Assembly: GCF_001887355.1 (NCBI RefSeq)
Contig: NZ_MPIN01000007.1
Coordinates: 22,888-86,887 of the forward strand
From: Cystobacter ferrugineus
GTDB lineage: Bacteria > Myxococcota > Myxococcia > Myxococcales > Myxococcaceae
Direction: 5' to 3'
Length of the DNA stretch: 64,000 nt
A model generated the notes under the pieces. It was not told where the DNA came from, made no database searches, and saw only the letters and a program-made list of their open reading frames with translations. A program made the position numbers and the translations under genes. Shown here piece by piece: positions 14,124-24,624 of the stretch (position 1 is the first letter of the stretch; each line of letters opens with the position of its first letter).

Positions 14124-15509
14124 ATGACCATGAATCCAGCACTCGCCATCGACACGCCTCGTCCCCTCAAGGAGTACACCCCCCCCACCCTCGAACTGCT
14201 CAAGGCGATCCGTCGAGAGGGGTTTCTCGGCTGGATGACGAACACCTGGCGCCAGCACGGGGATCTCCTCCGCATCCGGATGGGCGCGCAGTCGCTCGTG
14301 CTGGTGACCCACCCGGACCACGTGCGCCACGTCAACGTCACGCGCCGTGAGAGTTACGACAAGGGCGAGAGCTACGACGTCCTCCGCGAGCTGCTGCTCG
14401 GCAATGGCATCGTCACCGCCACCGGGGAGGACTGGCGCTGGCAGCGCAGGCTCATGGCGCCGTTCTTCACCCCTCGCGGCGTGGAGAAGTTCTACCCCAT
14501 CTTCCTCTCCGACACGCAGCAGCTCATCGAGCGCTGGCGCTCCCAGCTCCAGGGCTCCGGCCGCCCTGTCGAGATGCTCGACGAGATGATGCGGGTCACC
14601 GCCTCCGTCATCCTCCACTCGGTCTTCAGCACCGAGTCGGACGAGGCCCTGCTGCGCATCAAGAACTCGATCGAGACGATGGTTTCCCACATCTCGGACA
14701 CGGGGATGCGCCCCGTCCAGGTGCCGCAGTGGGTGCCCACCCCCGGGAACCTGCGGTTCCGCCGGGCCCACAAGCTCGTGACGGCCTACATCCGCGAGCT
14801 CATCGCGCGGCGCCGGGCCCTCCCCACCGAGCAGTGGCCGGACGACCTGCTGACGAAGATGATGACGATCCGGGACGAGGAGACGGGGACACTCATGGCG
14901 GAGCAGCTCCTCATCGACAACGGCCTGACCATGTTCGCCGCCGGGCATGAGACCACGGCACGGACGCTCTCGTTCTTGTGGTACGCGCTGTCCCAGAACC
15001 CGGAGGTGGAGCGGCGGCTGCACGCCGAGCTGGACTCGGTGCTGGGAGACGCGCCTCCGACGATCAACGAGTTGAAGCGGCTCCCCTACACCCTCCAGGT
15101 CGTGAAGGAGGTCCTCCGGCTCTATCCGGCCGCGCCGATGTACGCCCGTGACGCCGTTGCCGATGACGAGCTCGATGGGGTCCGCATCCCGGCCGGCACG
15201 AGGATGCTCGTCTTCACCTACGGCACCCACCGGCACCCGGCGTTCTGGGACGAGCCGGAGCGCTTCGATCCCGACCGCTGGTTGCCCGAGCGCGAGGCGG
15301 CACGCCATGATTACGCCTACCACCCCTTCGCCATCGGACCGCGCATCTGCCTGGGCAATAACTTCTCCCTGCTCGAGACCCACGTGATGGCGGCCATGCT
15401 CGCACGCCGCTTCAAGCTGCGCCTGAAGCCCGGCCACGTGCCGCGGATCGACATGTTCGGCACCCTCGGCTCGAGCAACGGCTTGCCGATGCTGATCGAG
15501 GCGCGGTGA
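14124..15509 (+). CDS. Cytochrome P450
   Basis: 461 aa. All P450 landmarks are present: the I-helix oxygen-activation motif AAGHETT, the K-helix ExxR in KEVLR, the FDPDRW meander motif, and the heme-ligand loop FAIGPRICLG with Cys409 as the thiolate ligand. It resembles the soluble bacterial P450s nearest to the eukaryotic/CYP102-like clan (long N-terminus, LLLGNGIVTATGEDWRWQRR). Substrate and redox partner are unknown; no ferredoxin is adjacent. AAGGA lies 6 bases before the ATG at 14124. Its last codons (LIEAR, stop) lie in a 50-bp sequence repeated at 22890, so its 3' end marks an insertion boundary. Confidence 0.9.
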   Translation: MTMNPALAIDTPRPLKEYTPPTLELLKAIRREGFLGWMTNTWRQHGDLLRIRMGAQSLVLVTHPDHVRHVNVTRRESYDKGESYDVLRELLLGNGIVTATGEDWRWQRRLMAPFFTPRGVEKFYPIFLSDTQQLIERWRSQLQGSGRPVEMLDEMMRVTASVILHSVFSTESDEALLRIKNSIETMVSHISDTGMRPVQVPQWVPTPGNLRFRRAHKLVTAYIRELIARRRALPTEQWPDDLLTKMMTIRDEETGTLMAEQLLIDNGLTMFAAGHETTARTLSFLWYALSQNPEVERRLHAELDSVLGDAPPTINELKRLPYTLQVVKEVLRLYPAAPMYARDAVADDELDGVRIPAGTRMLVFTYGTHRHPAFWDEPERFDPDRWLPEREAARHDYAYHPFAIGPRICLGNNFSLLETHVMAAMLARRFKLRLKPGHVPRIDMFGTLGSSNGLPMLIEAR

Positions 15510-15535
15510 GCCCCTGCCTCACCGTCCGCCGGTGA
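15486..15535 (+). repeat. 50-bp direct repeat, left copy (P450 3' end)
   Basis: Covers the last P450 codons, the TGA and 26 bases beyond. It matches 22890-22939 at 48 of 50 positions (differences at 15490 and 15516), same orientation. The two copies bracket the whole peptide-export operon. Confidence 0.85.
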
Positions 15536-15578: not shown

Positions 15579-17807
15579 TCACTCCACCCGTTCGCTCTTC
15601 ATCATCTGGGCCCGCACCAACTCCGCGTAGACGCCACCCCGCAGGAGCAGTTCCTGATGCTTGCCGGCTTCCACGAGCCGGCCCTCGTCCATGACGAGGA
15701 TGAGATCCGCGTCCACCACGGTGCTCAGCCGGTGGGCGATGATGACGCGCGTGCACTGGAGGGAGGCGAGCGACTTCTGCACCCGGCGCTCGGTGATGGC
15801 GTCGAGGGCGCTGGTGGCCTCGTCCAACAGCAGCACCGCCGGCTTCTGCATCAGCGCCCGGGCAAGTGCCAGCCGCTGCCGCTGGCCGCCCGAGAGCGAC
15901 GCACCCCGATCCACCAGGGGGGTGTCGTAGCCCATCGACATGGCCATGACATCCTCATGGAGCTGGGCCAGCCGGGCCGCCTCGATGGCGTGCTCCAGCG
16001 GGGCGGCCGGGTTGGTGATGGCGATGTTGCCGCGCAACGTGGAGCTGAAGAAGGAGGGTTCCTGGGGCACCACGCCCATCTGGCCGCGCACCGAGTGGAG
16101 ATCCAACTCCATCAGGTCCTCCCCATCGAAGAGCACACGTCCGGAGGAAGGCAGGTACAGACCGAGCAGGAGATGGGCCAGGGTCGTCTTCCCGGCGCCC
16201 GAGCGGCCGACGATCGCCACGGATTGGCCGGGTTCGATGCGCAACGACACCTCCTGCACCACCAGCGGCGACGTGGCCGCATAGCGGAAGGACACCCGCT
16301 CCAGCTCGATACCTCCCTTCAGCTCCACCGAGCGGCCGGGGTGGGTGGGGTCCCTCTCGGACGGGGTGTCCAGCACGTCGTCCATGCGCTCGATGTAGCT
16401 GTGCAGCAGTTGGAGCTGGGTGGCCGTGCCCACCAGGTTGGCCAGTGGTACGAGCAGCGCCCCGGCGAGCGCGTTGAGCCCCATCATGGTCCCCAGCGTC
16501 ATGCTCCCCGCCAGCACCTGGAGGGTGCCGAAGGTGAGCAGCACCAGTGGGGCCATCATCTGCAGGGCGCCGGTGAGCGAGTCCACCCACGCCAACAGCC
16601 GGCCCCGCTTCAGCGAGACGTTGAGCACGTTGACGAAGCTCTCCGAAAAGCGCTGCACCGACTGCTGCTCCACGCCGAAGGCCTTCAGCGTCTGGATGCC
16701 GGTGAGGATTTCGATCTGTTCGGTCTGGTTCTTCGCCTCCACTTCCAGGTTCTCCGCCATCAACGCGTGCTGGCGCCGCGTGGAGAGCGCGATGATGAGG
16801 AGTTGCAGTCCTCCCAGACCCAGGACGAGGAGCGCCACGGACGGGTCCACCACGAACAGCAGCGCGAGGTAGATGACGACCAGGGCGCCGTCGAGCACAG
16901 CGGAGAGCGTGCCCGAGGAGAGGATTTCCCGCACGGCGGCGTTGCTGTTGAGCCGCTGCATCAAATCGCCTGCCGCGCGCACCTGGAAGAAGGAGTAGGG
17001 CAAGCCCACCAGGTGCTCCAGGAAGCCGAGCGTCATGTGCGAGTCCATGCGCGTGCGCAGCTCGAGCAGCAGGTGGCTGCGGATGAGCGAGGTGAGGAGC
17101 TGGAAGCCGGCCAGCGAGATGAAGCCCAGGCCCACCACTCTCAGCAGGTGGGTGTCCCCGAGGGGAACCACCCGGTCGATGATGAGCCCCGTCAGCGCGG
17201 GGACCGCCAGCGCGAAGAGCTGGAGGATGACCGAGACGACGATGATGCGCTGGAGGACGTGTGAGTGTCGCAGCACTTGCATCGCATACCGGGCGATGGA
17301 GCGGGGACGGGGCTTCTTGCCCGTCTCGAAGTTCTCGCTCGGCTCCAACAGCAGGGCCACGCCCGTGAAGGACCGGCGGAAGCGCTCCAGGGACACCTTG
17401 CGCCGGCCGAGGCCTGGGTCGAGCAGGTGGACGCCGTCCCTTCCCAGCTTCTCGAAGACGACGAAGTGCGAGAACTGCCAGTGGAGGATGGTGCCGGTGG
17501 GCAGATAGTGGAGCGCATCGTCGTCGACGGAGACGCCGCGCCCGCGCAGCCCGAAGGTGCGGGCCGCACGCAGGATGTCCAGCGCCGATACCCCATCCCG
17601 CATCGCGCCCATCTGCTGACGGACCTCTTCCATCCGCATTGGCTTGCCGTGGTACCCGAGCACCATGGCGAGACAGGCGACACCACACTCGAACTCCGAG
17701 AGCTGACGCACGAGCGGGATGCGGCGCTCTCGGCCCTTCATCCGGAGATTGCGGAACGCGGGAAACCGCTCGGTCAGTCCTGGATGCCGGACGGGGTCAG
17801 TCCTCAT
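15579..17807 (-). CDS. Peptidase-containing ABC exporter (C39, bacteriocin/RiPP type)
   Basis: 742 aa. Residues about 30-165 are a C39 peptidase: the catalytic Cys41 in LSEFECGVACLAM with the oxyanion Gln35, His in FSHFVVFEK and Asp in HLLDPGLG. A six-helix membrane domain follows, then an ATPase with Walker A VGRSGAGKTT, signature LSGGQRQRLALARAL, Walker B VLLLDEATSAL and switch His IIAHRLST. Such exporters cut leader peptides after a double glycine and export the core. The GG-leader peptide at the far end of the same operon is the obvious substrate. It is the last gene of the operon; its start overlaps the HlyD stop by 11 bases, and a hairpin at 15544-15573 follows. Confidence 0.9.
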   Translation of the reverse strand: MRTDPVRHPGLTERFPAFRNLRMKGRERRIPLVRQLSEFECGVACLAMVLGYHGKPMRMEEVRQQMGAMRDGVSALDILRAARTFGLRGRGVSVDDDALHYLPTGTILHWQFSHFVVFEKLGRDGVHLLDPGLGRRKVSLERFRRSFTGVALLLEPSENFETGKKPRPRSIARYAMQVLRHSHVLQRIIVVSVILQLFALAVPALTGLIIDRVVPLGDTHLLRVVGLGFISLAGFQLLTSLIRSHLLLELRTRMDSHMTLGFLEHLVGLPYSFFQVRAAGDLMQRLNSNAAVREILSSGTLSAVLDGALVVIYLALLFVVDPSVALLVLGLGGLQLLIIALSTRRQHALMAENLEVEAKNQTEQIEILTGIQTLKAFGVEQQSVQRFSESFVNVLNVSLKRGRLLAWVDSLTGALQMMAPLVLLTFGTLQVLAGSMTLGTMMGLNALAGALLVPLANLVGTATQLQLLHSYIERMDDVLDTPSERDPTHPGRSVELKGGIELERVSFRYAATSPLVVQEVSLRIEPGQSVAIVGRSGAGKTTLAHLLLGLYLPSSGRVLFDGEDLMELDLHSVRGQMGVVPQEPSFFSSTLRGNIAITNPAAPLEHAIEAARLAQLHEDVMAMSMGYDTPLVDRGASLSGGQRQRLALARALMQKPAVLLLDEATSALDAITERRVQKSLASLQCTRVIIAHRLSTVVDADLILVMDEGRLVEAGKHQELLLRGGVYAELVRAQMMKSERVE

Positions 17808-18744
17808 GTCCCAATGCTCCTTTCAGACCCGGAATGAGCGTGACGAGGATTCGCTCCTCGCGCACGCGCACCTCGGCCCTGGCCTGCATCCCGTCGAAGT
17901 AGTTGAAAGACCTTCCCTTGAGGGTGAAGGTGGGCGAGCCGATGCGTGCTCGCACCAGCACCATGGGGCCGGAGAGGGAAAGGGCATCGCTGCTGTCCGC
18001 GCCGAGGTAGCGGCGGACCTCGTTGGGACCGATGACCTGATCTCCCACGGATTCGATGGTGAGCGTCTGGTATTCGTGGCTGAAGCCGTTCAGCTCCACG
18101 CGCAGCGGCTTGCCGGGGGCGAGCCTCGGCCGATAGCCCCCGGGCAGCAGGGCCATCAGGGTCACGTTCACTTCGTCGCCGACCACGGAGACCACGTTCT
18201 CACCCGGATTGACGTATTGGCCCTGTCGGACGCGCAGGGCGCTCACGACTCCGGCGTGCGGCGCCCGCAGGGTGCGTGCCTGCCTCCGGGCCTGGGCCAG
18301 CTCGCGCTCGGCGCGCAGCGACGTGAGGGCCTGGCGCGCGGCCTCGTCCGTGGGATCCTGCAGCACCCGGAGGAGTTGCAATTCGAACTCGCGCTGGGTG
18401 CGCTCCAGTGCGGCCGTCTCCTCCTGGGAGAGGAAGCTCACCAGCGGTTGTCCGGCCTCCACCCGTTGTCCGGGTTTTACGTTCACGGACGCGACGATGC
18501 CCGGTGTCTCGGGGGTGAGATCACTCCGCCCCTCGACCTTCACCACCGCGGGGCCGGAGGCGTGCTCGGGGATGGTGCCGAGCAGCGAGAAGAGGCCCGC
18601 GAAGACGACCAGGGCGAGCAGCACCCAGTAGGTCCACCGGGTCCACCGGGGAGAGATGCGGAGGAGGTCTCCGTCTTCCTGCGTGCCCTCGTGGTGGCGC
18701 AGCGCCTCCTCGCGGAAGATGGACGGACGTCGGGTGGCTTCCAT
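17797..18744 (-). CDS. HlyD-family membrane-fusion protein of the peptide exporter
   Basis: 315 aa. One N-terminal membrane segment (about residues 38-58, WVLLALVVFAGLFSLLGTI) is followed by a lipoyl/barrel-sandwich half (TPGIVASVNVKPGQRVEAGQ), a short helical hairpin of about 50 residues, the second lipoyl half (RAPHAGVVSALRVRQGQYVN) and a beta-barrel. This is the bacteriocin-exporter adaptor layout, linking the ABC exporter to an outer-membrane channel. The channel (TolC-type) gene is not in the operon. It starts 2 bases after the upstream adaptor gene's stop and overlaps the ABC gene by 11 bases. Confidence 0.85.
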   Translation of the reverse strand: MEATRRPSIFREEALRHHEGTQEDGDLLRISPRWTRWTYWVLLALVVFAGLFSLLGTIPEHASGPAVVKVEGRSDLTPETPGIVASVNVKPGQRVEAGQPLVSFLSQEETAALERTQREFELQLLRVLQDPTDEAARQALTSLRAERELAQARRQARTLRAPHAGVVSALRVRQGQYVNPGENVVSVVGDEVNVTLMALLPGGYRPRLAPGKPLRVELNGFSHEYQTLTIESVGDQVIGPNEVRRYLGADSSDALSLSGPMVLVRARIGSPTFTLKGRSFNYFDGMQARAEVRVREERILVTLIPGLKGALGHED

Positions 18745-18746
18745 GG

Positions 18747-19685
18747 CTACGGTGTCGTCCCCCCGTCACGTTGCGACGGTGGCACCGGACGGACGTGGAC
18801 GACCGCGCCAGAGGAGACCTCGGGCGGCGGTGGTTGAAGAAAGGTGGCGGTGGCGAAGACCAGGCGGGCCGCGGAATCCACCTCGGGTGCGATGCTCTCC
18901 ACCGTGCCCGTGAGCGGGAGGTCGTTCTGGAGGACGTTCACCTCCACGGGGTCGCCCGGCTGGAGGTCGCGCGCCGCGGCCTCGGTGATGGCGAAGCGCA
19001 CCTTCCATCCGCCGATCCCCAGCAGCTTGAGCACCGGCTGCCCTGCGGCCAGGCGGGCGCCGGGGCTGGCGAGCGTCGCGGCCACCACGCCATCAAAGGG
19101 CGCCACGAGCGTGGCATCGTCGAGGTTCTGTCTCAGTCCGGTGACCTCGGCCTGCCGTTGGAGCGTCTGGGCCCGGGCTGCCTGCAGGCGGGCGGTGGCC
19201 GTGCTCTCCTCGTAGCGGACCCTCGCCAGCTCCTCCTGGGAATAGACGCCCAGCTCCAGCGAGCGTGGGGTGATGTAGCGGCCCTTCTTCTCACGCGCCT
19301 CGGAGAGGGCGAAGGTGGCGGCTTGCTCCTCGGCGTGTGAACCCTGGAGCATCGCCTGGGCCGCGGCCAGGCTCTGACGCAGCGAGCGCGTGTCGAGCCG
19401 CGCGAGCACCTGGCCCTCGTGGACGGCCTCTCCCATCTCGACTTCGAGCCGCTCCAGTCGTGAATCGAAGCGGAAGCTCACGGCCACGGAGTCATGAGGG
19501 ATGATGACGCCAAGAAAGGATTCCTCGGCTCCCGAGTGAGCAACGGCCTCACCGTCCACCCCCTGGGCGGGCGGCGGGACGTTGCCACTCGAGTCGGGAT
19601 TCGCGAGAGCGGGCGCCTCGGCTCCCACGATTCCCAGAAGAACCAGTCCCCATCCCAAGGCTGTCCTCCGCACCTTTCGACGCAT
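18747..19685 (-). CDS. Second periplasmic adaptor (RND/HlyD type) of the peptide-export operon
   Basis: 312 aa with a Sec-type signal peptide (MRRKVRRTALGWGLVLLGIV ending near ALA). The mature part reads as an adaptor: RFDSRLERLEVEMGEAVHEG (lipoyl half), a coiled-coil hairpin of about 100 residues (RSLRQSLAAAQAMLQ to TLQRQAEVTGLRQNL), then VAPFDGVVAATLASPGARLA and a barrel domain. GGGAGA lies 9 bases before the ATG at 19685. Two distinct adaptors in one exporter operon are unusual; this one lacks a membrane helix after the signal peptide and could be periplasmic. Confidence 0.8.
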   Translation of the reverse strand: MRRKVRRTALGWGLVLLGIVGAEAPALANPDSSGNVPPPAQGVDGEAVAHSGAEESFLGVIIPHDSVAVSFRFDSRLERLEVEMGEAVHEGQVLARLDTRSLRQSLAAAQAMLQGSHAEEQAATFALSEAREKKGRYITPRSLELGVYSQEELARVRYEESTATARLQAARAQTLQRQAEVTGLRQNLDDATLVAPFDGVVAATLASPGARLAAGQPVLKLLGIGGWKVRFAITEAAARDLQPGDPVEVNVLQNDLPLTGTVESIAPEVDSAARLVFATATFLQPPPPEVSSGAVVHVRPVPPSQRDGGTTP

Positions 19686-19725
19686 TCCATGTCTCCCTGG
19701 GGCAAGACCCACAGAGGAAGAGGGA

Positions 19726-21252
19726 TCATGTAAAAGTTGTGACGCGCTCCCCCATGGCCGGGCTCGTCTCGGCCCCGCGTTGTTCGCGGGCGGAACCTCG
19801 AATGGCCGCCTCCGCGTCGCGGACCCTCTGCAAGGCGGTGGCGACATCATCGGCGGCATCGACTCGACCGAGAGCGGCGTTGAATACCAGGCTCGTCCGT
19901 GTCTGTCCCACGAAGCCCTCGAGGAAGCGGGGGACGCCGGCCACCGCCGAGAACATCGGCTCCGGGTTGGCGAGCTGGGTCTGCACCGGCACGAGCCTGA
20001 CAACTCCCTTGCGCTTGGGCTTCATGTTCAGCGCCACGTGGCACTGGACATCCACCAGCGCGCCCAATTCCTCCGTGGCTCCGGGGGGCAGCGCAAGCAC
20101 CGAGGCAAGGGCCGCGGTCAGCTTTTCCCCAAGCGCCCCCGGATCATGGAGCCAATGTGATTGCGGAAACCGCGCGCGCAAGGCCTCGGCCGTGTCCAGG
20201 AGGAAGCGATTTTCCAACTCGCCCCCGCCTGCATCGTTCCGGCCGAGCCACTCCAGACGGTCGAGCAGGAAGGCGAGGAAGGTGCGGAACTGCTGGAGGC
20301 ATAGCAACACCTCGCACCCGACGAGGACATGGAAATCCGCCATGTCCACCGACTCGGGCAGCGTGCCGGACGTGGTCACCATCCCGATGAAGGGCCCTCC
20401 AAAAACGATGGGCGTCTCCAGATCGAGGAAGCGGCCGTCCGCGGTGAAGTTGTTGTGGAATGAGCCCCAGTAGACGCCTGTCCGGAAGAATCGCGCGAAA
20501 TGCTGCACCAGACGCTCGAGGGCGCACTCCATGCGTTCCGCGATGGCCATGGGGGTGACGTCGCGCAGGCGCACCTCTGGTTGGGAGGGGTCTCCGAGGT
20601 ACTGGGCCATCTTCAAGAGCAGTTCGACGAGGAACGGGGCCTTGGAACGCCACTGCGAGAACGCCCAGACGAAGTTGGACAGGCGCGCGAATCCCGCTCG
20701 CTTGACGGTGATCGCCTGGAGCCGCCGGTTCGCCGGGGCGAGCTGGCGCAGGTCGCGGCCGGCGAAGATGGACTCGACATAATGCTCGGCATCCGGTGGC
20801 AACGGCGCGAGGAGCAGGCCCTCGCACGCGACGAGGGTGTCTCCCGCCCCCATCTCCTCCAGATAACAGCTCACGAGGTACTCCCTCGCGGCGGCGGAGG
20901 GGAGCATGTGCCCGCTGTTGTGATAGCGGTCCGTCGGGTTGTTCCAGTTCGCCGCGAGCAGGGTGCGGCCCACGCCCTTCAGGTACTTGCCGTTGTAGAC
21001 GCCGGCCCGGCCCGCCCCCAATCTGAGGGAGATGTTTTGATCCGCGTTGGTCTGGAGGTCCGAGTACAAGAGCTCCGTTTCGTGCTCCGGCCGCGCCGAG
21101 AACCCAAAACAACCGATACGTCCCAGGTCGACCTGAACGGCACACGGGGCGTGCCGCACGTGCAACGCGGTGAACCCGGCGGGTACAACCGGAATGGGGA
21201 CCGCCCAGGGATCCGTGGGATTGCCTGGTGAACTGCTGTGGGTCAAGGACAA
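19726..21252 (-). CDS. SelO-like (YdiU) pseudokinase-fold protein, candidate peptide-modifying enzyme
   Basis: 508 aa. It has the order of motifs of SelO, the kinase-fold protein that transfers AMP from ATP to proteins: YLKGVGRTLL (SelO LKGAGxTPYS; K92 as the ATP lysine), SAAAREYLVSCYLEEMG (SelO RSSIREYL; E124), ITVKRAGFARLSNF (SelO MRVAPSHLRFG), and GSFHNNFTADGRFLDLE (SelO GVMNTDNMSxxGLTLDYG). N268 and D277 keep the 9-residue spacing of the SelO metal ligands, but the catalytic-base Asp becomes N267. The start is a TTG at 21252, 6 bases after a strong GAAGGAG; the same 16-base leader precedes the peptide gene. It follows the 396-aa gene by 32 bases. It could modify the peptide by AMPylation or another nucleotidyl or phosphoryl transfer, or act without catalysis. 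Confidence 0.6.
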   Translation of the reverse strand: MSLTHSSSPGNPTDPWAVPIPVVPAGFTALHVRHAPCAVQVDLGRIGCFGFSARPEHETELLYSDLQTNADQNISLRLGAGRAGVYNGKYLKGVGRTLLAANWNNPTDRYHNSGHMLPSAAAREYLVSCYLEEMGAGDTLVACEGLLLAPLPPDAEHYVESIFAGRDLRQLAPANRRLQAITVKRAGFARLSNFVWAFSQWRSKAPFLVELLLKMAQYLGDPSQPEVRLRDVTPMAIAERMECALERLVQHFARFFRTGVYWGSFHNNFTADGRFLDLETPIVFGGPFIGMVTTSGTLPESVDMADFHVLVGCEVLLCLQQFRTFLAFLLDRLEWLGRNDAGGGELENRFLLDTAEALRARFPQSHWLHDPGALGEKLTAALASVLALPPGATEELGALVDVQCHVALNMKPKRKGVVRLVPVQTQLANPEPMFSAVAGVPRFLEGFVGQTRTSLVFNAALGRVDAADDVATALQRVRDAEAAIRGSAREQRGAETSPAMGERVTTFT

Positions 21253-21284
21253 GATCGACTCCTTCGTGTGCGCTGGGCTTCTCT

Positions 21285-22475
21285 TCAGTTCAGGACGAAC
21301 AGATCCCGTGGCTCGGAGCTCACTGGAGCAACGCGCTTCACCTGCTCGATGAGCCGCAGCACGAGCTCGTACTCCTCGCGCCGGAGTGCACGCGCGATGT
21401 CCTTCCGGGTGTCTTGGGTCAAGTCGTCGAACACCGTCGCCGTGACGCGCTGGAGGACGTAGTAGCGCAGGCTGCCAGGGGGGGCGTCGGCTTCCGGCGT
21501 GAGCGAGACGACGTTCGAGTTGACGAAGCGGAAGTCGGGCCGGCGGCTCCTCGGGCTTTCGGGAGGCTCGTTCCGGGTCCGAAGTTCAAGCCCACTATCG
21601 GAGTCCTCCTTGATCTTGGCGAACAGCACGAGTCCCAACTCGTGAATCAGGCGTTGCTTCCACTCTTCCTCGAAGGAGACCGGGCCTGTCAGTCCTCGAG
21701 GGTCGTATGAGACTTCCTCGGCGGCCAGGAAGGACAACCACAACCGACTGTACTCGCGCTGCGTGGCGCCGTAGCTCAGTTCATGCGAGAGCCAGTTGAG
21801 CAGTCGAGGACTTCTGCGCACGTCCCGCACATCGAAGCCCTTGAAGATACCCGAGCAGTAGAACCGGGCGAGATCGCCAAAGAAACCGGGGCGCTGCGCG
21901 TCCCAGCCCTGGTAGAACCGGCGGTACTCGGAGACGTATCGCTCGTGATAGCTGACCGTGAGGTTCACCTGCGTCGTGCCGATGGGGATCCGCTCGGGCA
22001 GCTCGAAGGTCGAGAGATACCAGTAGTCGAGCCCGACCGTCGCGGCGGCTTCTGTCAGGAGGTGGCAGAAGACGAAATCCTCGATATTGTCACGGAGGAT
22101 GGGGCCGGTATCGAACCGGACCCAGGGGGCCAGCACGGCGATGGCCGCTGCCGACCAGCAGTGCAGGTAGTCGTGCACGGCGAACAGCACTTCCCTCACC
22201 AGATAGTCACCCTCGTTGTAGTCCCGGGCAGAGCCGTACGGATTGGCGAGCCAGTGTGAAAGAGCCGAGTTGCTCGCGTAGAAAATGGTCCGGTGGAAGG
22301 GATTGAAGCCCGCCAGGGTCACTGGAACGATGTGTTCGTAGAACCATCGTTGGTCGATAGCGCGGGGGGCGAGGCGCACCAGGGGATCCGAGAGCATCTG
22401 GCGCACCAGGGGAATCCGCGCGAGCGACTCGCCATGAGGCTTGGAAGGGACGGGGAATGAGGATGCACTGCTCAT
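21285..22475 (-). CDS. Unrecognised 396-aa helical protein, candidate metal-dependent peptide-tailoring enzyme
   Basis: I do not recognise a family. The protein is predicted largely helical and has two similar motifs 37 residues apart: E95-x5-H101-x3-H105 (EVLFAVHDYLH) and E132-x5-H138-x3-E142 (EDFVFCHLLTE), followed by D150 in GLDYWYL. A Glu/His pattern on paired helices is what carboxylate-bridged di-metal enzymes show. Further conserved-looking spots are SYHERYVSEYRRFY, LSHELSYGATQREY and LIHELGLVLF. There is no signal peptide. The gene lies 99 bases after the precursor-peptide gene and 32 before the SelO-like gene, so a role in maturation or in self-protection is inferred. Resemblance to heme-oxygenase-like diiron oxidases is a hypothesis only. 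Confidence 0.5.
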   Translation of the reverse strand: MSSASSFPVPSKPHGESLARIPLVRQMLSDPLVRLAPRAIDQRWFYEHIVPVTLAGFNPFHRTIFYASNSALSHWLANPYGSARDYNEGDYLVREVLFAVHDYLHCWSAAAIAVLAPWVRFDTGPILRDNIEDFVFCHLLTEAAATVGLDYWYLSTFELPERIPIGTTQVNLTVSYHERYVSEYRRFYQGWDAQRPGFFGDLARFYCSGIFKGFDVRDVRRSPRLLNWLSHELSYGATQREYSRLWLSFLAAEEVSYDPRGLTGPVSFEEEWKQRLIHELGLVLFAKIKEDSDSGLELRTRNEPPESPRSRRPDFRFVNSNVVSLTPEADAPPGSLRYYVLQRVTATVFDDLTQDTRKDIARALRREEYELVLRLIEQVKRVAPVSSEPRDLFVLN

Positions 22476-22574
22476 GATGGGGATCTGCTGCTGAGGGGAC
22501 AGCGGTGCCGTGACGCATCGCTGTCCGCTGTGTCAGTTGTGGTTGCGGTTGCGGTTCAGTCCCAGGCTGAGTGC

Positions 22575-22748
22575 TCAGGTGATCTCGACCTTGTTCTTCT
22601 TGCTGTCTTCACCCTTGATGTCGTTGACCCTCGCGCCGGCACCGCCCGCGACCGAGGCCAGCTCTTCGAGGGTCAACTGCTTCTCCTCCAACTGCTGCTC
22701 GTTCGACTTCTGGGGGTTCAACGACTTCTGCTCCTTGGTGGGCTTCAT
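22575..22748 (-). CDS. Double-glycine-leader precursor peptide
   Basis: 57 aa. The leader (residues 1-36) is polar and ends QLTLEELASVAGG, a standard GG processing motif for C39 exporters (hydrophobic positions at -4, -7, -12 relative to the cut). Cleavage after G36 leaves a 21-residue core beginning AGARVNDIKGED and ending KNKVEIT. The core has no Cys, one Ser (S49) and one Thr (the C-terminal T57), and is rich in Lys, Asp and Glu. It is therefore not a lanthipeptide or a disulfide bacteriocin. A strong GAAGGAG precedes the ATG at 22748 by 7 bases. It is the first gene of the operon, with the exporter last. Confidence 0.75.
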   Translation of the reverse strand: MKPTKEQKSLNPQKSNEQQLEEKQLTLEELASVAGGAGARVNDIKGEDSKKNKVEIT

Positions 22749-22889
22749 TGATCGACTCCTTCGTGATGAGCTGCGGCGCCAGTGCCACAACTCACATGAA
22801 TTGAGTCGACAGTGGATGTTTGTGAGGACACTTCAGGAATCGTTGGAGAGTAGAGCTTGGGGCAGGGGAGTTGGCGCCGACAGCGCGGA

Positions 22890-22939
22890 CCGAGGCTGAT
22901 CGAGGCGCGGTGAGCCCCTCCCTCACCGTCCGCCGGTGA
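22890..22939 (+). repeat. 50-bp direct repeat, right copy (duplicate of P450 3' end)
   Basis: Matches 15486-15535 at 48 of 50 positions. Here it is not attached to any P450 reading frame: the preceding bases are unrelated and no P450 sequence continues leftwards. It follows the precursor-peptide promoter region and is directly followed by the hdeD pseudogene. Confidence 0.85.
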
Positions 22940-22954
22940 TGGAGGGGAGGTGCG

Positions 22955-23175
22955 TCACGAGTGAGCGAGCCGGTGCATCGCCCCGCGCAACGAGAGCGCC
23001 CCCGCCATGATGGAGACGCCGCGGACGAGGAGTTCCACGCGGCGAGGTCCCAGCCCCACCCCGCGTAGCGGTCGACGAGAGAGGTGATGCCTCGGAAGAG
23101 CCCGCTGGCGAAGAAGTACCCGGCCAGCGGCAGCGTCATCGCCATCAGCCTGGCCGCGCCAGGACCCTGGCGCCC
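22955..23175 (-). pseudogene. hdeD-like pseudogene (deleted, frameshifted copy of 24040-24624)
   Basis: The C-terminal codons (SIMAGALSLRGAMHRLAHS) and an inner segment (AGYFFASGLFRGITSLVDRY, AGWGWD) match the intact HdeD gene at 24040 closely, but about 90 bp between them (equivalent to 24124-24209) are missing and the two parts are in different frames. Sequence at 23183-23272 also matches the upstream region of the intact gene (24690-24775), so a whole locus was duplicated and one copy decayed. The remainder to 23439 holds no gene that I can support. Confidence 0.75.
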
Positions 23176-23439
23176 ACGACGCGAGGGAGGAGGTCACGGG
23201 TGGGCCGTGGCTCCTCGGAGGGGAGGAGGGCCGCGTTGCGCGCGATGGCTCCACCTCTCGCCAGCCAGCGCACCCCGTTCGGGGCCTGTCTCCCCTGCTG
23301 ATGGTACATGAGCGCGCCAGACGCCATGGGCCAGACCTCTTCCCTGCTCTCCTGGCGCGCGAGGAGCGAGGTGTGACAGCGCATCATCGGCAAGCGTGAG
23401 CGGTCACACCCCTCTGGCTCCCGTCAGACGTGGTGAGCG

Positions 23440-23891: not shown

Positions 23892-24039
23892 GAGGATCCC
23901 CCTGATGTGGTGGAAGTGGCAAGCCAGTTGGTTGCTCTTGCCGCACGCATGGATAGGGGAATTCCTTGGAGCCAGATGACCCCCTGGGGATCGTTCACTG
24001 TCGTTCGAATGACAGCCCGGAGGCGCGTTCATCTCGATG

Positions 24040-24624
24040 TCAGGAGTGAGCGACCTGGCGCATCGCCCCGCGCAACGTGAGTGCCCCCGCCATGATGGAG
24101 ATGCCGCGGACGAGGATTTCCACGCCCACCACGATGCCCAGGGCCCACAGGGAGGAAGTGGGCATCTGGGCGGAGATGATGATGCCCAGCACCACGGACA
24201 CGAGGCCGTAGGCGAAGTCCCAGCCCCACCCCGCGTAGCGGTCGACGAGGGAGGTGATGCCCCGGAAGAGCCCGCTGGCGAAGAAGTACCCGGCCAGCAG
24301 CAGCGTCATCGCCATCAGCCCGGCGCCCGGCCGCGCCAGGACCATGGCGCCCACGACGATGGAGAGGATGCCCCCCAGCAGGAACATCAGGAAGGGGCCC
24401 GTCTTGCGGACGCGGAAGGCGTGGATGATTTCGAAGATGCCCGCCACCACGAGCATGGAGCCGAAGAAGATGACGGAGGCGACGCTGGTGGCGACCACCG
24501 CCCCCAGTGCCACGACACCGAGCAGGGAGAGCAGCAGACCCATGACGAAGGGACCACCCCACAGCCCCGACGTGTTCCGTTGAGGAGTGGTTCTTGAATC
24601 GATGCTGGAGCCTGTGATTGCCAT
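24040..24624 (-). CDS. HdeD-family membrane protein
   Basis: 194 aa with about six membrane segments (VMGLLLSLLGVVALGAVVAT, VIFFGSMLVVAGIFEIIHAF, FLMFLLGGILSIVVGAMVLA, and so on) in the HdeD (DUF308) arrangement, including the paired RPGAGLMAMTLLLAGYF and GWGWDFAYGLVSVVLGIII repeats. HdeD was named for acid resistance in Escherichia coli; the role in myxobacteria is not known. A decayed copy lies at 22955-23175. The bases 24625-24812 upstream contain no gene, only the region that is duplicated at 23183-23272. Confidence 0.85.
   Translation of the reverse strand: MAITGSSIDSRTTPQRNTSGLWGGPFVMGLLLSLLGVVALGAVVATSVASVIFFGSMLVVAGIFEIIHAFRVRKTGPFLMFLLGGILSIVVGAMVLARPGAGLMAMTLLLAGYFFASGLFRGITSLVDRYAGWGWDFAYGLVSVVLGIIISAQMPTSSLWALGIVVGVEILVRGISIMAGALTLRGAMRQVAHS

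Follow-up and report, generated by a model that had tools for sequence, protein, structure and literature searches.

MchC, the maturation protein of microcin H47, was identified in 2012 as a distant subfamily of SelO, in a report that names gammaproteobacteria as the hosts of SelO-type peptide chemistry (PMC3281104). SelO itself is described as moving AMP from ATP (PMC12599244), and MchC/MceJ together with MchD/MceI are described as joining a siderophore to the C-terminal carboxylate of the microcin, with the division of roles between MceI/MchD and MceJ/MchC stated to be unknown in a passage of PMC7472721. MchC loci follow a common plan, encoding a double-glycine (GG) peptide, MchC, a partner, an HlyD adaptor and a C39 exporter. 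A similar plan is found in a six-gene operon within a 64,000-nucleotide (nt) stretch of Cystobacter ferrugineus DNA (contig NZ_MPIN01000007.1, positions 22,888 to 86,887; hereafter the window), taken from a 12 Mb genome in 42 contigs. As in the MchC/MceJ systems of microcins H47, M and E492, a SelO-type enzyme lies by a GG peptide, an HlyD adaptor and a C39 exporter; here, however, the host is a myxobacterium, and a 396-amino-acid (aa) protein stands where the HlyC-like partner is expected.

We put at roughly even the chance that a short ribosomal peptide is produced by this operon and then modified and secreted, through ATP-driven activation of a carboxylate of the peptide followed by conjugation and export. 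An initial annotation had described a single minus-strand operon for peptide maturation and export, and indeed all six genes were found at the place and strand given there, with a GG leader on the peptide and with the C39 exporter and adaptors scoring over the Pfam cut-offs.

Kinship of the SelO-like protein with MchC

Neither of the two middle proteins of the operon matched anything up to an E-value (E) of 1 in Pfam, NCBIfam or PADLOC, and for the SelO-like protein (508 aa) this included the SelO family itself (PF02696). Among Protein Data Bank (PDB) sequences the SelO-like protein had no credible match, and the best match of the 396-aa protein, at E 0.91, was taken as noise. This agrees with the initial annotation, which had found neither gene like the tailoring enzymes of known peptide classes.

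Profile comparison pointed to MchC. The six-member family of the SelO-like protein gave a 96.9% match to MchC (E 1.5e-10, score 86.5), and none of 200 shuffles scored as high (best 36.0). The match to SelO (YdiU), a protein adenylyltransferase, was 45% (score 40.6, above all 200 column shuffles, the best of which reached 26.2), which is weak by itself; MchC matched SelO at 93%, and unrelated profile pairs gave 0.1-0.4%. When only the five close members were used, leaving out the row from genome G171, the values were 94.4% to MchC and 11.4% to SelO, and the G171 member by itself gave 95.7% and 0.2%, respectively. The SelO alignment held nine myxobacterial sequences (9 of 15 matches), and the MchC alignment an Escherichia coli Nissle protein and 6 of 21 plasmid records. 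The only label that the Nissle gene carries is hypothetical; we took it as MchC on the basis of its position 271 nt after mchB and its 70-73% identity to the plasmid proteins, some of which are annotated as MchC.

The motifs of the SelO-like protein are collinear with those of SelO, and residues K92, E124, N268 and D277 match conserved SelO/MchC residues, so that the ATP/metal site keeps its Lys, Glu, Asn and Asp. A loop of the form N-x3-D-x4-D occurs in 6/6 members of the window family and 7/7 MchC proteins and in 0/9 SelO proteins, all nine of which instead carry the metal loop N-M-S-I/V-L-G-L-T-I/L-D; the window protein also falls below Pfam detection of SelO. In a midpoint-rooted tree, which is to be read with a warning about long branches, the family, MchC and SelO each formed one clade, with the family beside MchC. 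Taken together, these comparisons place the window family, as judged from sequence, as a distant sister clade of MchC/MceJ, nearer to MchC than to SelO. Both the SelO relationship and the choice of MchC/MceJ as the nearest comparison had been anticipated in the initial annotation. An ordinary SelO is also encoded elsewhere in the genome of the window.

The putative partner protein

Of the seven MchC loci examined, six have an annotated HlyC-like acyltransferase next to MchC, and all seven a C39-type exporter. A hidden Markov model (HMM) of the HlyC-like proteins, applied at E up to 1 to 1472 six-frame segments from the window and six related loci, retrieved nothing. In a leave-one-out control the left-out protein was found in 6/7 loci; the one missed, which had formed one of the seven alignment rows, is the hypothetical protein next to the MchC relative of Salinivibrio (L130). 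The 396-aa protein occupies the place of the missing MchD. Its invariant residues include HDYLHCW, ED, E142, DYWY and HEL, which would suit a predicted metal site.

Several known families were considered for the 396-aa protein and rejected by profile comparison: HlyC-like (0.4%), and LpxL-like, DUF4135-like and 2-oxoglutarate (2OG) oxygenase (0.0-0.4%). Coq4 proteins carry the motif HDxxH-x11-E, and the HDxxH of the 396-aa protein led us to compare the two; the profile match was at noise level (0.4%, with at least 8 of 200 shuffles scoring higher), and a conserved Glu at the Coq4 spacing was not found in the 396-aa family. This comparison used 13 of 51 Coq4 matches, chosen among 20 loci. The 51 matches come from 16/59 related genomes, and eight Coq4-family matches lie in the genome of the window itself (G000 contigs C1, C2 and C3).

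On Vibrio and Photobacterium plasmids (L129, L131), MchC-like genes occur with radical S-adenosylmethionine and glycosyltransferase genes and an HlyC-like partner, and the Salinivibrio MchC relative (L130 4980-6934), whose neighbour was not recognized as HlyC-like, is another possible partner swap.

Precursor peptides and their cores

The window peptide consists of a 36-aa leader ending in LTLEELASVAGG and a 21-aa core, and its gene is preceded by an AAGGAG sequence. The leader and the C39 peptidase domain of the exporter resemble those of other GG-leader/C39 systems, and the two are encoded in one operon, as expected for C39-exported peptides; however, the peptide scores below every curated HMM cut-off. 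We aligned six precursors from five genomes, one of which (G002) carries two peptide gene copies. Cores range from 15 to 26 residues with the length variation on the N-terminal side, they are charged, and their last residues are T, E, E, F, G and G. An Asp and a Glu, seven apart, are invariant in 6/6 cores, with the Asp tenth from the C-terminus in 5/6 and ninth in 1/6. The conserved block thus keeps its spacing from the C-terminus, in line with an enzyme that would work at that end.

The invariant pair also raises the alternative of an intramolecular cross-link, in which the MchC-like enzyme would activate the core Asp or Glu to give a lactam, ester or imide ring that the 396-aa protein then tailors. 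A Lys or Arg indeed lies between the two acidic residues in 6/6 cores, but no nucleophile is invariant (four cores have Lys, two Arg), Ser, Thr and Tyr are all absent from one core, and the known relatives form a conjugate rather than a ring; we consider such a ring unlikely. Since five of the six cores lack Cys and one lacks Ser, Thr and Tyr, thioether, azole and hydroxyl-AMP chemistries are not common to all six.

This composition also bears on peptide AMPylation, put forward in the initial annotation, in which AMP would stay attached to the core in the end product. The AMP transfer described for SelO (PMC12599244) and the kept site residues speak for it. The window enzyme, however, is nearer to MchC than to SelO, its nearest characterised relatives attach a siderophore at the carboxylate of the C-terminus, and the one core of six without Ser, Thr or Tyr offers AMP no hydroxyl. 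A stable AMP modification thus seems quite improbable, and we did not retain this part of the annotation.

Conservation of two separate modules

A near full-length SelO-like gene was found in 5/98 genomes, that of the window included, and the 396-aa gene in the same five; the other four copies are 69-74% and 73-80% identical to those of the window, respectively. The order peptide, 396-aa gene, SelO-like gene (the trio) is kept in 5/5 of these pair genomes, at unrelated loci. The initial annotation had proposed searching other genomes for the pair beside GG peptides, and this co-occurrence was seen in every pair genome. Across 10 genome pairs the ratio of nonsynonymous to synonymous substitution rates (dN/dS) was 0.27-0.48 for the SelO-like gene and 0.19-0.52 for the 396-aa gene. 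Gene constraint and the kept trio order show that the operon is real and beyond chance.

The exporter has a distribution of its own. An orthologue with 82-87% identity was present in 8/9 other genomes (the exception, G001, had a best match of 58%), and four of these (G030, G038, G045 and G051) have the exporter orthologue and no trio. Both adaptors accompany the exporter in 7/7 exporter loci examined, and no 396-aa gene, SelO-like gene or similar peptide was found at these seven loci (E up to 1e-5). In G002, G010 and G057 the trio and the exporter module lie megabases apart, and G003 has them on separate contigs. With distinct loci in the other four genomes and exporter loci free of the trio, the two modules are conserved separately, and the window operon is a junction between them. 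Such separation elsewhere would fit export in trans. It could also mean that trio and exporter are chance neighbors and that the middle proteins do not modify the peptide at all, but the peptide adjoins the pair in 5/5 genomes at unrelated loci and the genes are co-directional with short gaps, making this reading highly implausible.

Among 195 genomes of the phylum, 9 gave a match to the SelO-like family (E up to 0.01), with near full-length genes in 6; among 384 genomes there were 10, namely 6 near full-length genes, one C-terminal fragment and 3 weak partial matches that we took as noise. The 396-aa family was found in 6/147 genomes of the class (one of these matches weak and partial), in 5/195 and in 5/384 genomes, and additionally in Paraliomyxa. 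Plasmids searched with three queries and viral contigs searched with the family alignment gave no match. A second weak match in G057 (E 2.8e-4) was dropped, its open reading frame (ORF) being siderophore synthetase-like by eye. The C-terminal fragment lies at a contig start in G121 (C14:161-376, L032), as a remnant or a cut gene, and the 396-aa gene was not found in that genome.

Relatives near other GG-leader peptides

Distant relatives of each enzyme occur in other settings. In Paraliomyxa miuraensis, the neighbours of a relative of the 396-aa protein (40-42% identity) include genes for a JmjC_2 protein, an M3 peptidase and a YcaO protein, as well as a small ORF with leader LTVEELDLEQLEGVTGG; a 2OG-oxygenase gene follows at a greater distance. 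As these genes lie on both strands, they do not form one operon. The locus yielded neither a SelO-like nor an MchC-like gene. The region (L015 8654-21195) holds two JmjC_2-like genes, one below cut-off, and the core of the GG-leader ORF contains APDAPDAPDA.

The SelO-like relative in G171 (L031 3558-9554) is near two 130-aa GG-leader precursors with SCHGE repeats, in a cluster that also encodes a DUF4135 protein, a TIGR02466 (2OG) oxygenase and a protein with weak, sub-cut-off likeness to LpxL-type acyltransferases; the 396-aa gene was not found in this genome. The SelO-like and 396-aa enzymes thus look like separable parts, each recurring near GG peptides, in one case each.

Operon layout and flanks

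The exporter and adaptors are of ordinary types by Pfam (Table 1). From peptide to exporter, the gaps between genes are 99, 32, 40, 2 and -11 nt. The SelO-like gene starts with TTG, where the G010 relative has ATG at the same point.

Table 1. Operon genes and neighboring features, in window coordinates
Feature	Position	Strand	Remarks
Six-gene operon	15579-22748	minus	running 22748 down to 15579
Precursor peptide gene, 57 aa, GG leader	22575-22748	minus	homologues ahead of the 396-aa gene in four other genomes
Peptide core	22578-22640	minus	
396-aa protein (P0002)	21285-22475	minus	invariant HDYLHCW; without Pfam/NCBIfam match to E 1
SelO-like protein (P0001), 508 aa	19726-21252	minus	MchC/MceJ sister clade by profile comparison
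HlyD/RND-type periplasmic adaptor 1, 312 aa	18747-19685	minus	Pfam HlyD_3 and HlyD_D23 above cut-off
HlyD-type adaptor 2 (P0004), 315 aa	17797-18744	minus	Pfam HlyD_3 above cut-off
C39-peptidase ABC exporter (P0005), 742 aa	15579-17807	minus	Peptidase_C39, ABC_membrane and ABC_tran above Pfam cut-off
AAGGAG	22756-22761		ahead of peptide gene
50-nt direct repeat, left copy	15486-15535		
50-nt direct repeat, right copy	22890-22939		
P450 gene	14091-15509		
DUF308 gene copy, broken and partial	22954-23191		upstream of operon
DUF308 gene, intact	24039-24368		

The operon is flanked by a 50-nt direct repeat with 96% identity between copies, the left copy coinciding with the final codons of a cytochrome P450 gene and its tail. 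We asked whether the operon had been inserted at the 3' end of the P450; in 8/8 related P450 loci, searched 1.5 kb beyond the gene, the window sequence right of position 22939 did not follow the P450. There being no clean empty site, we make no claim of mobility. The broken DUF308 copy and the intact gene are 91-96% identical in their longest blocks.

Discussion

These results may be combined into a model of how the operon works. The MchC-like enzyme, with its presumed SelO-type kinase-like fold, would use ATP to turn a core carboxylate, most likely the C-terminal one, into an adenylate. The 396-aa protein, as a stand-in for MchD/MceI, would move an acceptor small molecule to the carboxylate or prepare that acceptor. 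The C39 exporter would then cleave after the GG and, with the two adaptors, secrete the product. We propose an acyl adenylate and an acceptor handled by the 396-aa protein because MceIJ/MchCD carry out conjugation and SelO transfers AMP. Conjugation at the C-terminus is favored because of the kinship with MchC, the siderophore attachment by MchC/MchD and the common locus plan, and also because the trio is conserved, the site residues are kept, the core segment holds its distance from the C-terminus and distant relatives of each enzyme are likewise found near GG-leader peptides.

Several results weigh against this model. BLAST of the window family against MchC was not significant, and the MchC HMM, which recovered left-out MchC proteins in 7/7 cases at 166-452 bits, gave 21-24 bits in 4/6 family members and missed the window copy. 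Given profile kinship together with these misses, we regard the family as a remote MchC sister clade inside the SelO superfamily and outside MchC proper. AlphaFold models built from six sequences each had a predicted local distance difference test (pLDDT) score of 38 for the SelO-like protein and 43 for the 396-aa protein, and Foldseek found no match at E up to 0.001 for either. The 396-aa protein, annotated as a helical metalloprotein, is at most a candidate for one, on the basis of the invariant HDYLHCW and a low-confidence model. No HlyC-like partner was detected in 590 window segments (HMM, E up to 1). The exporter is unlinked from the trio in 4/5 pair genomes and adjoins it only in the window, so that the single unit with the exporter, as annotated, holds for the window and not for the other four genomes.

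Lastly, the Ser/Gly-rich C-terminus of siderophore microcins was not seen in any of the 6 cores, and the last residue varies. This bears on the most specific form of the conjugation model, in which the product would be a true microcin-like siderophore-peptide antibiotic carrying a catechol. Such a product would fit the presence of an MchC-like enzyme alongside adaptors and a C39 exporter, and catecholate siderophores, myxochelin among them, are made by myxobacteria; yet the cores, with 15-26 highly charged residues, differ from those of the siderophore microcins, and the HlyC-like partner is missing. We therefore hold a catechol conjugate to be very unlikely.

The novelty claimed in the initial annotation can be narrowed. 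SelO-type proteins have been seen next to GG peptides before, since MchC itself is a published SelO relative (PMC3281104), and SelO-type maturation of exported peptides is thus known already; the new elements are the partner, the kind of precursor and the host organism. Among the matches listed in a search of titles and abstract beginnings in the open-licence literature, we found no report that places a SelO-like or MchC-like protein in a peptide operon of myxobacteria.

Somewhat more tentatively than the model itself, we suggest that the operon represents a new class of myxobacterial ribosomal peptides, in which an MchC-like enzyme and an unrecognized, probably metal-binding family build a conjugate at the C-terminal carboxylate, using exchangeable parts that each occur also apart in other peptide clusters. 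This would extend SelO-type peptide chemistry past the gammaproteobacteria and bring an orphan protein family into peptide tailoring. With the SelO-type enzyme kept, the partner different and cores down to 15 residues, the system may make it simple to tell the roles of the two enzymes apart.

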